Origin: Lebetimonas natsushimae
GTDB lineage: Bacteria > Campylobacterota > Campylobacteria > Campylobacterales > Nautiliaceae
Assembly (NCBI RefSeq): GCF_002335445.1
Contig: NZ_BDME01000002.1
Location: forward strand, 62,001-126,000
Direction: 5' to 3'
DNA length: 64,000 nucleotides
In this document: piece by piece, positions 19,340 to 31,400 of the stretch
How the letters are laid out: every line of letters begins with the position of its first letter
Numbering within the stretch: position 1 is the stretch's first letter
The notes under the pieces: model-generated
The model's input: only the letters and a program-made list of their open reading frames with translations
Database searches by the model: none
What the model was told of the DNA's origin: nothing
Made by a program: the position numbers and the translations under genes

Positions 19340-20116
19340 TTATGTTAATTTGATTTTTTGTTTTTTTCTGTTTTCAAAATAGACAGCTTCGCTAAATCCT
19401 AAATTTTTAGCCATCTTGATAACTTCATTTATTTTATATCCAACATCCTCTGGTTTGTGGGCATCGCTTGAGAATGTAATATCTATTCCTTCATCCCTTA
19501 TCATTTCAAGAAGTTTAGTTGAAGGATAAATCTCTTTTACGGGTTTTCTGAGCCCTGCTGTGTTTATTTCGACTGCCATACCCGCCTTTTTAATTTCTTT
19601 GATTGCATTTTTTGCAATGTCTTTTATATTTTTTTTAGGCTTAAATCCGAAAACTTTTACCAAATCAAGATGTCCTACTATGTCAAAGAGGCGTGATTTT
19701 GCCAAATCCTGAATTTTTGAAAAATATTCTTCATAAATATCATCTACATCTCTGTTGTGCCACTCTTTTATAAATTCGGGATTGTCGAATCCCCAGTTGT
19801 CTAGGAAATGAACGCTGCCAATCAAATAATCCACATTTCTTTCAAGCACTCTTTTATCCACATAAGGGGTAAAATCAACTTCATATCCCAAAAGTATTTT
19901 TATTTTGTCTTTGTATTTTTCTTTGAGTGATTTTATTTCTTTTTCATATTTTGGCATATCGGAAAAACTCATTCTGTATTGTTCATCAAACTCCATTGAG
20001 GCATGATCTGCAAATCCGTAAATTTTAATATTTTTTTCAATGGCTTTTTTTACATATTCCTCAGGATTTCCTGTTGCATGCTTGCAAAGCGGGGTGTGAT
20101 TGTGAATATCTATCAT
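19340..20116 (-). CDS. PHP-family histidinol-phosphatase (HisJ/HisK type)
   Basis: A metal-dependent phosphoesterase that probably dephosphorylates histidinol phosphate. PHP motifs are all present: MIDIHNHTPLCKHA, YGFADHA, LLGYEVDF, GSVHFL, IVGHLDLVK, EINTAG and SSDAHKPEDVG. It is about 258 residues. The frame is open one codon further to a TTG (20119), but the ATG at 20114-20116 is the better start. hisIE is elsewhere in the window, not linked. Divergent from cheZ. Confidence 0.85.
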   Translation of the reverse strand: MIDIHNHTPLCKHATGNPEEYVKKAIEKNIKIYGFADHASMEFDEQYRMSFSDMPKYEKEIKSLKEKYKDKIKILLGYEVDFTPYVDKRVLERNVDYLIGSVHFLDNWGFDNPEFIKEWHNRDVDDIYEEYFSKIQDLAKSRLFDIVGHLDLVKVFGFKPKKNIKDIAKNAIKEIKKAGMAVEINTAGLRKPVKEIYPSTKLLEMIRDEGIDITFSSDAHKPEDVGYKINEVIKMAKNLGFSEAVYFENRKKQKIKLT

Positions 20117-20138
20117 CAATTTTGCCTTTTTTATTGAA

Positions 20139-26582: not shown

Positions 26583-27717
26583 ATTTTTTACTGCTTTTTA
26601 TCTTCTTTTTCTTTTTTTTATTTATTTAATTTCAATTCCTTTTTTAGTAATCCTTAGTTTTAAAGAAAAATATAAAAATTCAATTCCTGCAAGATTTTTT
26701 TTATTAAACAATCCTCCGTTTAATAAAAAACTTCATCATTTTCATTCCTGCAGTCTTGGAGAAACAAGAGCGCTGAAGCCTGTTATTGAAAGATTTGAAG
26801 AAGTTAATTTAAGTGTTATTACAAATACGGGCTTTAATGAAGCAAAGAAATATAAAAATGCAAATGTAAGGTTTTTGCCGTTTGAAATATTTTTGCCTTT
26901 TTGGCTGAAACCCTGTAAAAATTTGGTGGTAATGGAAGCGGAACTTTGGTATATGCTTTTTTATCTGGCAAGAAGGAGATGTAATAAGACTATTTTGCTA
27001 AATGCCAGAATTAGTGAAAAAAGTTATCCAAAGTATCTGAAATTTAAATGGTTTTATAAAAAAATTTTTGAAAATATAGATATTGTTTTGGCACAAAGTG
27101 AGGAAGATAAAAAAAGGCTTTTGAGCTTAGGGGCTAAAAATGTAGAAGTGGTTGGAAATATAAAAACATATTTTGAGCCGAAGATTACAAGAGAATATAT
27201 TAAAAAAAAGCCTTTGATAGTACTCGCTTCTACCCATAAGAATGAAGAAGAGATTATTTTACCAAAACTTGATTTAGATAAATTTCAGGTTGCGGTTGTA
27301 CCAAGACATCCTGAGAGATTTGATGAAGTTTATAATATTATAAAAAAATATGGAAAAGTGGAAAAATTAAGTGAAAAGTTAAAAATTAAAAGTGAAAAAA
27401 TAAATTTGGATAAAGATTTAATTTTGATTGATAAAATGGGAGAATTGGTCAATTTATATAAAACAGCTGATATTGTAATACTTGGGGGCAGTTTTGTAGA
27501 TAATGTGGGGGGACACAATCCAATTGAAGCTGCATATTTTAATAAGCCTATAATTAGCGGAAAATATTATTTTAATCAGATGGCTTTATATAAAGAGGTT
27601 GAAAATATTGAAGTTTGCGAGGTAGATGAAATAAATGAAGTGATAAAAAAAGCAAAACCTACTAAAATAAAAAACAGAATTGATTTGGATAAAATAATTA
27701 ATATAATTGAAAATTAA
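26572..27717 (+). CDS. waaA: 3-deoxy-D-manno-octulosonic acid (Kdo) transferase
   Basis: Transfers Kdo from CMP-Kdo to lipid A at the inner membrane (GT30 family). It has an N-terminal membrane anchor (about 4-27), the motif HHFHSCSLGETRALKPVIE (about 60-77; catalytic Glu region), NARISEKSYPKY, VAVVPRHPERFDEVYNI and the late motif GGSFVDNVGGHNPIEAAYF. The length is 381. The only usable start in frame is GTG at 26572, within a repeat and without a good Shine-Dalgarno sequence, so translation may be coupled to flgZ. Confidence 0.92.
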   Translation: MKNKFFTAFYLLFLFFIYLISIPFLVILSFKEKYKNSIPARFFLLNNPPFNKKLHHFHSCSLGETRALKPVIERFEEVNLSVITNTGFNEAKKYKNANVRFLPFEIFLPFWLKPCKNLVVMEAELWYMLFYLARRRCNKTILLNARISEKSYPKYLKFKWFYKKIFENIDIVLAQSEEDKKRLLSLGAKNVEVVGNIKTYFEPKITREYIKKKPLIVLASTHKNEEEIILPKLDLDKFQVAVVPRHPERFDEVYNIIKKYGKVEKLSEKLKIKSEKINLDKDLILIDKMGELVNLYKTADIVILGGSFVDNVGGHNPIEAAYFNKPIISGKYYFNQMALYKEVENIEVCEVDEINEVIKKAKPTKIKNRIDLDKIINIIEN

Positions 27718-27736
27718 TAATGGAGAATGGAAAATG
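27709..27736. repeat. AATGGA-type interspersed repeat, copy 4
   Basis: It begins at the waaA stop codon (27715-27717). TAATGGAGAATGGA (27718-27731) is identical to 23068-23081. Its GGAGAATGGA provides the ribosome binding site of the DUF167 gene, and its last ATG (27734) is that gene's likely start. Confidence 0.6.
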
Positions 27737-28024
27737 AGTAAATTTTATGAAATCAAAGATGAAAAAGTAATTTTTTATGTAAAAGCCCAGCCAAATTCTT
27801 CAAAAAACAAAATAGCGGGGCTTTACGGGGATAATTTAAAAATTAATATAAAAGCACCTGCGGTTGAGGGTGCTGCTAATAAAGAACTTATTAAATTCCT
27901 ATCTAAAACTTTTAAAGTGTCTAAAAGTGATATAATAATAAAAGGTGAAACAAGTAAAAGAAAACAGATTATAATGCCTTTAAATGAAAAAATAGAAAAT
28001 TTCCTAAAGGAATTTAATGACTAA
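27734..28024 (+). CDS. DUF167 (YggU) family protein
   Basis: The 96-residue protein with the family core FYVKAQPNSSKNKIAGLYGDNLKINIKAPAVEGAANKELIKFLSKTFKVSKSDIIIKGETSKRKQIIM. Structures of the family are known, but no function is. The frame is open from a TTG at 27707, but the extra residues come from repeat DNA; the ATG at 27734 puts the domain at the N-terminus. It overlaps polX by eight bases. Confidence 0.88.
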   Translation: MSKFYEIKDEKVIFYVKAQPNSSKNKIAGLYGDNLKINIKAPAVEGAANKELIKFLSKTFKVSKSDIIIKGETSKRKQIIMPLNEKIENFLKEFND

Positions 28025-29636
28025 TGCTGATATAGCAAAAATGCTCTCCCTTACAGCGGATTTACTTGATATAAAAGGGGAAAATCCTTTTAAAGTACGG
28101 GCTTACAGAAATGCGGCAAGACTTATAGAAAATTCAAGTAAAGATTTTGAAAAGCTGGTAAGAGAAGGCTTTGATTTAACACGTCTTCCAGGAATTGGAC
28201 ATGATTTGAGTGAATATATAAAAGAAATTGTAACAACGGGTAAATTTTCAAAACTTGAAGAACTAAAAAAAGAAGTACCTGAGGGATTGATTGATATGCT
28301 AAGCATTGAAGGGCTCGGCCCTAAAAGAATCAAGCAGATTTATGATGCGTTTGGAATAACAAGTTTGGATGAACTTAAAAAATATGCTGAAAACGGGGAA
28401 CTTGATAAACTTCCGGGATTTGGACCTACACTGATTCAGAAAATTTTAAAAGGAGTAAAACAGCTTAAAAAAGCAGGTATTAGGTTTTTATGGGCTGATG
28501 TGGAAGATGTGGCAGAGGATTTAAGAAAATATTTAATGGATTTTGAGGGGGTTGAAATTGTTGAAATTGCAGGAAGTTATAGAAGAAGAAAAGAAACAGT
28601 CGGAGATTTGGATATTTTGGTTATTGCCGATGATTATATGAAAGTTAGTGAATATTTTACAAAATACAAAAGAGTTAAAGAAGTTTATTCAAAAGGGCTT
28701 ACAAGAAGCACTGTTTTTTTGGATAACGGATTGCAGATTGACCTGAGAGCCGTTACAAAAGAGAGCTACGGAAGTGCACTTCATTATTTTACAGGAAGCA
28801 AAGACCATAATATTGCAATTAGAAAAATGGCAATAGAACTTGGTTTGAAGGTTAATGAATACGGTATTTATAAAGGAACTAAAAGAATAGCGGGGAAAAC
28901 AGAAGAAGAGGTTTATAAAGCAGTAGGCCTAACTTATATTGAGCCTGAACTCAGGGAAAACAGGGGCGAAATAGAAGCTGCTAGAAATGGGACTTTACCA
29001 AAACTTATAACTTTAAATGATATAAAAGGTGATTTAAAAGTATATTTTAATGAAAATATTAAAGAAATTATTAAAGCAGCTGAAAAAAGAGGATATGAAT
29101 TTATTGGAGTCTGTACAAGAAATGTGAAAGATTTAGAAAAAATTAAAAGTTTAAAATCCAAAATAAAAATTTACAGTGCAATTGAATGTGTAATTGATAA
29201 AGATGGAGAGTTAAATTATTCTGATGAAGAGATTAAAAATTTTGATATTGTTTATGGAAGTATTGAAGATAATTTTGATTTGGATAGAGATATCCAGACA
29301 GATAGAATTTTAAAAGCTTTAGAAAAAATAAATATATTATCCCATCCGTTCTGCAGGAAAATAAATGAATTTAACGGTATTGATATAGATTTTGAAAAAG
29401 TTTTAGAATATGCGAAAAAAAACAATAAAATCCTTGAAATTGACGCAAGAAGAAACAGACTTGATTTGGATGATTCAAAAATAAAGCTTACAAAAGAAGT
29501 AGGCGCTAAAATGGTTATAAATTCTTATGCTACTAATGAAGATGAACTTAATAACATAAAATACGGGTTAAATCAGGCCAGGAGAGGTTGGGCTGAAAGA
29601 AAAGATATTAAAAATTCAGTTAAAAATCCTTTCTAA
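28017..29636 (+). CDS. polX: family X DNA polymerase with degenerate PHP domain
   Basis: The 539-residue protein with an N-terminal 8-kDa-like domain and helix-hairpin-helix motifs (LPGIG 57-61, IEGLG 97-101, LPGFG 132-136), then the polymerase X core: GSYRRRKETVGDLDILV (Asp197, Asp199) and LQIDLRAV (Asp242), all intact. The C-terminal PHP domain (about 335-539) keeps overall similarity to the end (ARRGW), but most metal ligands are replaced. PolX enzymes fill small gaps in base excision repair; here the PHP 3'-5' exonuclease is probably dead. Confidence 0.9.
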   Translation: MTNADIAKMLSLTADLLDIKGENPFKVRAYRNAARLIENSSKDFEKLVREGFDLTRLPGIGHDLSEYIKEIVTTGKFSKLEELKKEVPEGLIDMLSIEGLGPKRIKQIYDAFGITSLDELKKYAENGELDKLPGFGPTLIQKILKGVKQLKKAGIRFLWADVEDVAEDLRKYLMDFEGVEIVEIAGSYRRRKETVGDLDILVIADDYMKVSEYFTKYKRVKEVYSKGLTRSTVFLDNGLQIDLRAVTKESYGSALHYFTGSKDHNIAIRKMAIELGLKVNEYGIYKGTKRIAGKTEEEVYKAVGLTYIEPELRENRGEIEAARNGTLPKLITLNDIKGDLKVYFNENIKEIIKAAEKRGYEFIGVCTRNVKDLEKIKSLKSKIKIYSAIECVIDKDGELNYSDEEIKNFDIVYGSIEDNFDLDRDIQTDRILKALEKINILSHPFCRKINEFNGIDIDFEKVLEYAKKNNKILEIDARRNRLDLDDSKIKLTKEVGAKMVINSYATNEDELNNIKYGLNQARRGWAERKDIKNSVKNPF

Positions 29637-31400
29637 ATATTCTTCAAATTTAAAAATTTCTTTTTTTACTATTTTTGCCAGTTTCGGATATTCTTTGAAA
29701 TCTATTTTAAAGGAAAGAATGTATAAATTATTTAAAATATGGAAAAGAGAACCTCTTAGAAGTAAAAAAGCCTCTTTATCAACCTGTTCGAATGTTTTAA
29801 TTAAATCTTCCAATCCTTCAATAAGTGAGGTTAATTTTTCTCTTGAAGTAATTTTTATATCCATGGCTCTGCTTATTGCCAAAAGCAGATTTTTAATTTC
29901 AGGTTTTTTGTCTTTATAATCGGTTTTATTAAAACATTTTAAAATTTCGCCTATATATTTTGTTTTGTCGATTTTTGGTAGGTTTTTATCTTTTAATGGA
30001 ATACTTCCTTCAATATAAACCCCGTCACTTAAATTATAAACTGTTAAATTTTTTTCTTTTATCAGTTTTTCAATATTTTTTTTACTGCTTAAAAGTAAAG
30101 GATTGCTGTAAATATCATTGCTGAAATTACCTTTTACCTTTATCCCGCTTTTTTCAATATCTTCTTTATCATCATAAAAACTGCCATTTGAATGTTTTCT
30201 CTCACCGAGTCTAAAACCTAAATCCATACCGCATAAATATATTGCATTGGTAAATTCTCCTGCAAAGGCCATTCCTGTATTTCCTACTATAGGTGAAGAA
30301 TATTTAAGAGTAAAATAATTGTCTTCTAAAGTAAAAGCTTCCCTTATATACATCAAAGGTTTTTTTGCCATTTGAAAAACAGACGGATTTACAACGCTTG
30401 CTCCAAGAAAATATCCATTATAATTTGGCAATATATCTTTTAGGGCTTCTTTTAAAATATCAATTCTTTCCTGTTCGATATGAAAATCACTTTCAATTCC
30501 GGCTTTAATCAGAGGTTTTAGGGCAGTCCCGACTGAAATTATTATCATAGAATCCCTGTTTTTTTTAATAAAGCCAATATTTTTTTCCAGACTTTTACCA
30601 TTTGCCACAATACAAATTGGAATATTTAATTTTTTTGATTTGGAAAACAGTGGATATTGATTAATATTTTGTAAATGATTTTTTATCCCTTTAACCTCAT
30701 CTTCAAAAGTTCCCCATCCCCTGTTTTTTAAAAGTGATGTTTCACTGAATTTATTTTTTGCATCATTTATGTAATTGTTTTCATAAACAGTTAAAGTAAA
30801 TCTTGCAAAAGATGAGGTTATCACTCTTTCAAAATAAAACTTCTCTATTGCAAAATAGTTTAGTTTATTTTTAATAAAAATAAAAAGTTTACCTTTTAAT
30901 TTTTTATAAAGTTTTTCATAATCTATAAAATAAAGACTTATAGCAAAAAATTCCGGTTCAGGTTCGTAAATAAAAAGGGATTGGAAATTGTATTTTTGAG
31001 CAAGTAATTCGATATGTTTTCCAGCTAGTATTCCTAAAATTACAGTTGCAGGTAAAAAATTTTTTTCGAAATAAAAGCTGTTTGTGTAATTTAAATCTTT
31101 TGCCTTATCTATTAGTTTATTTACTATTTTTGCAGTTATAAAAAATTCTTTTTCATCTAATCTAGGAGGATTTAAATAAAAAAATTCCTTTTCCCATAAA
31201 ATGTTTTGTATAGGGTTGTGAGCAAACACTAAAGAGTCTTCATCTATTGAATTTGGATAAATGTAAATATTTGTTTTAGTATCGTAAATATTATTATTTG
31301 TCAGTTTATATCTTCTTGTTTTTATTGAAGTTATTAAGTTGTAAAAAGAGGGAATATTTTGATAAAAAAATTTGATATTTTTTTCAAAAAGTTTTTGCAT
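29616..31400 (-). CDS. Maf/DUF115-type motility-associated glycosyltransferase
   Basis: The 594-residue soluble protein of the DUF115 (motility accessory factor) family. The core is IPICIVANGKSLEKNIGFIKKNRDSMIIISVGTALKPLIKAGIESDFHIEQE (about 263-314) and AIYLCGMDLGFRLGERKHSNGSFYDD (about 386-411). Maf proteins attach nonulosonic acids such as pseudaminic or legionaminic acid to flagellin. It follows flgE on the same strand, after a perfect hairpin. The stop is 21 bases inside the convergent polX. Confidence 0.85.
   Translation of the reverse strand: MQKLFEKNIKFFYQNIPSFYNLITSIKTRRYKLTNNNIYDTKTNIYIYPNSIDEDSLVFAHNPIQNILWEKEFFYLNPPRLDEKEFFITAKIVNKLIDKAKDLNYTNSFYFEKNFLPATVILGILAGKHIELLAQKYNFQSLFIYEPEPEFFAISLYFIDYEKLYKKLKGKLFIFIKNKLNYFAIEKFYFERVITSSFARFTLTVYENNYINDAKNKFSETSLLKNRGWGTFEDEVKGIKNHLQNINQYPLFSKSKKLNIPICIVANGKSLEKNIGFIKKNRDSMIIISVGTALKPLIKAGIESDFHIEQERIDILKEALKDILPNYNGYFLGASVVNPSVFQMAKKPLMYIREAFTLEDNYFTLKYSSPIVGNTGMAFAGEFTNAIYLCGMDLGFRLGERKHSNGSFYDDKEDIEKSGIKVKGNFSNDIYSNPLLLSSKKNIEKLIKEKNLTVYNLSDGVYIEGSIPLKDKNLPKIDKTKYIGEILKCFNKTDYKDKKPEIKNLLLAISRAMDIKITSREKLTSLIEGLEDLIKTFEQVDKEAFLLLRGSLFHILNNLYILSFKIDFKEYPKLAKIVKKEIFKFEEYLERIFN

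Follow-up and report, generated by a model that had tools for sequence, protein, structure and literature searches.

A Nautiliaceae PolX with an intact polymerase site and a degenerate PHP site, probably retained as a polymerase scaffold

What does a bacterial DNA polymerase X keep its PHP domain for once most of the residues of the nuclease site have been replaced? The question is raised by a gene in the 64,000-nucleotide stretch of DNA analysed here (the window), which comes from a hydrothermal-vent bacterium. The ORF scan of the window gave a complete plus-strand reading frame of 539 aa at 28017-29636 (Table 1), whose start shares 8 bases with the end of a short DUF167 gene (27707-28024). 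At the other end, polX and a convergent gene (29616-31400), which weakly matches the flagellin modification protein PseD, have 21 bases in common at their 3' ends (29616-29636). Thermus thermophilus PolX (3au2) aligned to residues 2-533 of the protein (E 6.8e-114), and the extension of this alignment to residue 533 indicates that the gene is colinear and free of frameshifts. The NCBIfam PolX model (NF006375 / PRK08609) aligned over residues 1-535 with 388 bits, below its cut-off of 426. The domain order over the full length is that of bacterial PolX, namely 8-kDa HHH, palm, thumb and PHP. Pfam matched the HHH, palm and thumb parts, while its PHP model (PF02811) gave no match in the protein, which thus falls outside the PHP sequence family by this model; across the whole genome PF02811 matched in two places only, DnaE and a HisJ-type protein, neither of which is PolX.

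Table 1. Positions of polX, its domain and motif features, and the other PHP proteins considered. Coordinates are those of the window unless a contig is given.
Feature	Residues	Coordinates	Strand	Remarks
polX		28017..29636	+	8-kDa HHH domain, HHH, palm, thumb, linker, PHP-derived domain
Asp197-Leu-Asp199, polymerase active site	197-199	28605..28613	+	intact; alignment
Asp242, third polymerase carboxylate	242	28740..28742	+	intact; alignment
PHP-derived domain	336-539	29022..29633	+	predicted fold matches YcdX
Motif I, GDLKVYF	338-344	29028..29048	+	both His ligands replaced: Lys341, Tyr343
Motif II, CTRN for TDHS	366-369	29112..29123	+	alignment
Glu390, retained ligand	390	29184..29186	+	alignment
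Motif III, SIEDNF	415-420	29259..29276	+	His replaced by Glu417
His443, retained ligand	443	29343..29345	+	alignment
Arg447 (B. subtilis Arg469 position)	447	29355..29357	+	present in 13/13 dead Nautiliaceae proteins
Motif IV, INSYAT	501-506	29517..29534	+	Asp replaced by Tyr504, His by Thr506
QARRGW C-terminal motif	520-525	29574..29591	+	alignment
HisJ-type histidinol phosphatase, stand-alone PHP		19340-20119	-	about 8 kb upstream of polX
DnaE with ligand loss		G000:C2:186569-189634		outside the window; loci L199-L217

The original prediction was of an enzyme in which the polymerase residues are intact and the PHP nuclease site is degenerate. Asp197, Asp199 and Asp242 were indeed all found in the alignment and are invariant there, and the palm triad is intact in all 48 aligned Campylobacterota PolX rows as well as in the 80 best named loci. 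With an intact palm and an altered PHP domain, the protein does not have the noncanonical PolX arrangement of an altered palm triad and an intact PHP site. Eight PHP ligands were then scored against intact relatives (the two His of motif I, the His of motif II, a Glu, the His of motif III, a further His, and the Asp and His of motif IV), and only Glu390 and His443 were retained. The ORF translation and the alignments bore out the four degenerate motifs letter by letter; furthermore, the YSDG loop after GDLKVYF is deleted and the motif II loop is shortened, with most of it gone. The earlier statement that Glu390 and His443 alone are left holds among the eight scored ligands but would need qualifying when nine are counted: canonical PolX carries the nine-residue pattern HHHEHHEDH in 88% of cases according to a survey (PMC9226535), and the further Glu between its sixth and eighth residues would correspond to Glu474, which is retained, leaving three of nine. 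The window protein, with at most three of the nine residues, does not have this pattern, which is typical rather than universal.

Two simple ways in which these replacements might mislead were considered. Alignment with T. thermophilus PolX, which had been proposed as a check, was colinear, and no movement of ligands to adjacent columns was found in the alignments with relatives. The claim that fold-bearing sequence continues to the last residues also agrees with this comparison, since the alignment with 3au2 runs to residue 533 and the RRGW-type motif is retained. A sequencing or assembly artefact is almost certainly not behind the PHP changes: nothing supporting such an artefact was found, the reading frames of relatives are colinear, and a congeneric species known from a separate assembly (G001) shows identical replacements at every scored ligand column, making sequencing error very unlikely.

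We surveyed Campylobacterota for comparable proteins, and use f1 for the family Nautiliaceae, g1 for the genus of the window and g2, g3, g4 and g5 for other f1 genera. PolX was present in 20 of 21 Nautiliaceae genomes. Its PHP site was dead in 13 of these 20, comprising all proteins of g1 (2), g3 (8) and g5 (3), and intact in 7/7 PolX of the sister genus g2. In the only g4 genome (G004, 83% complete) no PolX was found, with Nfo, Xth and HisJ present. Among 397 Campylobacterota genomes there were 37 strong PolX matches, 29 with an intact and 8 with a dead PHP site (G000, G001, G003, G005, G008, G084, G259 and G367). Dead sites outside f1 among these 37 belong to the genus g10 of family f6, which is probably Sulfurovaceae given that other f6 proteins are identical to Sulfurovum proteins. 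PolX occurs in 9 of 13 g10 genomes and is dead in the PHP part in 9/9, G417 being readable in its C-terminal part only; G025, G154, G419 and G423 gave no PolX match. Of the best 80 named loci seven are dead, all from Campylobacterota (L111, L112, L113, L116, L122, L132 and L147) and at least partly from the same genomes as the G-numbered set, while eight further named-locus rows (L120, L126, L136, L145, L148, L153, L171 and L183) are incomplete and partly or wholly unscorable. The rarity of dead PHP sites beyond Campylobacterota is judged from these best 80 named loci and otherwise from published figures. The survey that had been called for thus shows recurrence in Nautiliaceae and g10, and the degenerate site, first noticed in one protein, extends to at least four genera.

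The replacements themselves differ from lineage to lineage. At motif I, g1 has Lys and Tyr; in g3 the first position is Asn and the second Asn, Ser, Ala or Asp; in g5 the first is Glu or Cys and the second Val. The His443 column holds His in g1 and in two of the eight g3 proteins, the remaining six having Phe, and it holds Arg in g5. This bears on the possibility that nuclease activity survives via a remodelled metal site built from Glu390, Glu417, His443, Glu474 and their neighbours. Glu390 and His443 are retained in the window protein, the motif III His has become an acidic residue in both g1 and g10, and Glu390, His443 and the new Glu417 could still hold one metal, with the new acidic pocket residues Glu417 and Asp418 as possible weak ligands. 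However, such a site is very unlikely given that motifs I and IV have each lost both of their ligands and motif II its His, that the replacements form no common set among g1, g3 and g5, and that replacing two of the nine residues (H332A/H334A) is reported to have abolished the exonuclease of Deinococcus radiodurans PolX (PMC9226535).

A different role for the altered pocket was weighed by comparing g10 with the Nautiliaceae genera. Over 110 comparable PHP columns g1 and g10 share 8 residues that are rare in intact relatives, and the shared residues Glu417 (replacing the His of motif III), Cys446, Asp476 (replacing Asn) and Arg478, which are at or beside pocket positions, occur in 0% of 68 intact proteins. 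Compared with g10 in the same way, g5 shared 6/115 rare residues, g3 shared 2/81 (omitting G013, whose PHP part is missing) and the intact control g2 shared 4/127, none of them at 0%. These shared residues would fit a PHP pocket rebuilt in parallel as a charge-bridged core that lacks metal and has taken on another function, such as keeping hold of a DNA end or of a partner nuclease, a reading that we consider decidedly unlikely; the sharing is suggestive only, and Asp476 is disfavoured as a mark of loss because T. thermophilus PolX carries Asp at that position.

If the site is dead, the domain could still be folded. AlphaFold2 gave a model of the window PolX with a pLDDT of 93.5 (89-98 in the PHP blocks), the PHP part of which matched YcdX (1m65) with Z 22.1 and an rmsd of 2.2 A over 194 residues, thereby placing the domain among PHP barrels on the predicted model. 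As a whole the model matched 3auo_A with Z 36.3 and an rmsd of 4.7 A over 525 residues, and that of L116, a 509-aa protein of g3 type (pLDDT 92.9), matched it with Z 34.0 and an rmsd of 5.7 A over 500 residues; these fold comparisons are of whole models, and intact relatives in the AlphaFold alignments may favour the ancestral fold and so help the models.

Residue retention and substitution rates speak to whether the PHP domain is a functionless remnant that is being lost. Among the dead Nautiliaceae proteins, 13 in number, the 8 ligand columns hold the ancestral residue in 14% of cells, and 74 other PHP columns, those at least 90% conserved in 32 intact proteins, retain it in 60%. The linker between the polymerase and PHP parts keeps Arg313, Glu314, Arg316, Gly317 and Glu318 throughout these proteins, Asp410 and Arg447 are retained in 13/13, and Gln520, Arg522, Arg523, Gly524 and Trp525 in 12/12 readable ones, with Ala in 10. 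Counting positions from the ligands, we take Arg447 and Arg523 to correspond to Arg469 and Lys545 of Bacillus subtilis PolX. The latter two are described as required for the nuclease and not for gap filling (PMC6616362), and so gap-filling data do not explain why Arg447 and Arg523 are retained; a structural role or a DNA contact may be the reason.

Rates were expressed as the ratio of Nei-Gojobori dN in the PHP part to dN in the polymerase part, with the divergent f18 rows G300 and G349 omitted beforehand. The ratio was 2.38 for the single g1 pair, 4.92 for g3 (median of 28 pairs, range 1.66-24.18), 5.18 for g5 (median of 3 pairs) and 3.52 for g10 (one pair used), and among intact proteins 2.22 for g2 (median of 21 pairs, 1.70-4.39), 1.08 for f6 (28 pairs), 1.24 for f18 (36 pairs) and 1.78 for f4 (3 pairs). 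Because the g1 value falls inside the g2 range, the faster PHP evolution in g1 is not specific to loss of the site, and the g2 median compared with the other intact families indicates that PHP constraint was already weaker in intact Nautiliaceae. In the g1 congeneric pair the PHP part had dN 0.173 and dS 0.96 and the polymerase part dN 0.073 and dS 1.16; the resulting PHP dN/dS of about 0.18 therefore indicates that the domain is still under purifying selection, as an approximate figure, since most pairs have a dS close to 1 or higher and some have no defined dS.

Neutral decay would account for the high ratios of g3 and g5, for the in-frame loop deletions and for the raised ratio of intact g2, where relaxation may precede loss, and the lost loops and very fast PHP evolution of g3 (up to 24.18) also fit ongoing decay. 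We nevertheless regard it as unlikely overall, because no stop codon interrupts the matched frames in any of the 20 PolX-bearing Nautiliaceae genomes, Asp410, Arg447 and both Arg of the RRGW motif persist as counted above, the congeneric dN/dS is low and the predicted barrel is confident.

How often the site was lost was addressed with two trees. On the polymerase-part tree (47 rows, G259 being too short and omitted) parsimony needs three changes and starred branches separate g10 from Nautiliaceae, and a DnaE+HisJ tree likewise gives three changes phylum-wide. Parsimony thus counts three losses, two of which the starred branches make unavoidable. One loss only in Nautiliaceae was tried as the count and set aside in view of the three changes that parsimony gives on both trees, although a grouping of the 12 dead Nautiliaceae genomes into one clade is not rejected on the DnaE+HisJ tree (p-AU 0.129); the 13th, G017, has no DnaE match and is absent there. 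When a tree was built from the PHP part only, every dead domain fell to the same side of one branch (SH-aLRT 88), which one origin with domain transfer would also fit; this tree was not used for counting because its branches are very long. In g3, two proteins (L147/G020 and L085/G017) have a different and less eroded PHP half than L013, L014 and L019, and one of the two is up to 96% identical to other g3 proteins in its polymerase half and 44% in its PHP half, which suggests within-gene exchange or a burst of change.

We therefore favour a reading in which the window protein is a true bacterial PolX whose PHP domain is probably a pseudo-enzyme, a folded and presumably metal-free barrel kept as a scaffold of the polymerase, with the cleaning of AP sites and 3' ends left to other enzymes. 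From the residues kept and lost we infer that metal binding and nuclease activity are absent and polymerase activity is present. Loss of the ligands would turn the C-terminal PHP domain into a pseudo-enzyme whose barrel, by packing on the palm, thumb and 8-kDa domains, would hold the polymerase in a competent shape. The scaffold role is proposed by analogy with PolX of B. subtilis and T. thermophilus, and because gap filling by B. subtilis PolX requires its PHP domain: deleting the domain is reported to impair gap filling greatly and shortening the linker to lower it about 10-fold, and the PHP domain of T. thermophilus PolX lies stacked against residues of the palm, thumb and 8-kDa domains (PMC6616362). 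The PHP domain of E. coli Pol III, which is metal-free (dead), is described as stabilising the enzyme (PMC3666897).

Under the scaffold reading AP-site and 3'-end cleaning would pass to Nfo, Xth and other nucleases, and the PHP nuclease would be dispensable where Nfo and Xth are present. Nfo was found in 28 of 30 genomes (missing from G015, 89% complete, and G019, 70%) and Xth in 29 of 30 (missing from G011, 57%), both in dead and in intact lineages. This redundancy alone does not explain the loss because sister genera with both enzymes kept the site. No gain of Nfo, Xth or DnaQ was seen in the dead lineages, all three being present in lineages of both kinds, and they may explain why the loss was tolerated rather than where it fell. 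A stand-alone PHP nuclease was also considered as compensation and rejected, since the candidate gene at 19340-20119 is of HisJ type with intact ligands and occurs in dead and intact lineages alike. It is an ordinary biosynthetic gene, and all readable PHP ligands were intact in 20/20 aligned HisJ family members. Finally, a dead PHP domain might, like that of E. coli Pol III, serve as a docking site for a proofreading exonuclease on another protein, for example DnaQ. DnaQ-type matches were present in 30/30 genomes searched and binding of DnaQ by the PolX PHP domain has been raised as an idea for vent Epsilonproteobacteria (PMC2628731), but the matches showed no clear difference between dead and intact lineages and we consider such docking highly improbable.

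The PHP domain of DnaE offers a parallel within the same genomes. In Nautiliaceae DnaE, ligands 4, 6, 7 and 9 (numbered after PMC3666897) are lost in 17/17 readable proteins, two further rows being too short to read, and the ligands are intact in 8/8 other Campylobacterota. The losses in DnaE and PolX are not coupled because g10 keeps the DnaE site and lost the PolX site, and a shortage of metal is an unlikely cause because HisJ keeps its PHP site throughout. The dnaE gene of G001 (C1:470136-473169; L217, L220) is divided between two reading frames, and one of its matches contains two in-frame TGA codons, possibly through a frameshift or an assembly error.

How unusual this PolX is depends on the systems with which it is compared. 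Two large surveys find the PHP nuclease better conserved than the polymerase in PolX (PMC9226535, PMC12926913), the second giving a conserved PHP site in 95% of PolX1. The dead-PHP lineages reverse this trend more than once and beside a sister genus with an intact site, and they provide pairs of natural enzymes with which the scaffold and nuclease roles of PHP could be told apart, an issue that the deletion data for B. subtilis bring up (PMC6616362). PolX of vent Epsilonproteobacteria has been noted before, and the available portion of that paper carries no remark on its PHP residues (PMC2628731). The original prediction treated a dead structural PHP domain as not known for PolX. This needs narrowing, since partial PHP variants are in print (PMC9226535, PMC12926913); a search of open-licence papers, supplements excluded, brought up none that describes near-complete and repeated loss of the PHP site in PolX of otherwise canonical type.

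Canonical PolX (T. thermophilus 3au2/3auo and B. subtilis) shares with the window protein the domain order, palm triad, linker, predicted fold and RRGW-type C-terminal motif; by contrast, the window protein has at least six of nine PHP active-site residues replaced, has lost its YSDG loop and has a shortened motif II loop. Noncanonical PolX of D. radiodurans type likewise has one dead site and keeps the other, but as described it is the mirror image, the polymerase being dead and the PHP nuclease alive (PMC9226535). The partial variants reported there (HHPERHEDQ 2.7%, HHRERHEDC 2.3%, HHRERHEDM 1%) resemble the window PolX in combining a canonical polymerase with some replaced PHP residues, but have about three of nine replaced, whereas the window protein has six or seven of nine, loop loss and an occurrence in more than one lineage. 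The parallel drawn earlier with a dead structural PHP domain in DnaE is apt, since PHP loss is documented in C-family polymerases, where His positions 4, 6 and 9 are most often lost (PMC3666897). E. coli Pol III alpha has a metal-free, structural PHP element, and these three positions are also lost in the window PolX; it differs in being a C-family enzyme with an N-terminal PHP domain and DnaQ as a known partner (PMC3666897). By this analogy, the window PolX may be read as the PolX counterpart of E. coli Pol III.
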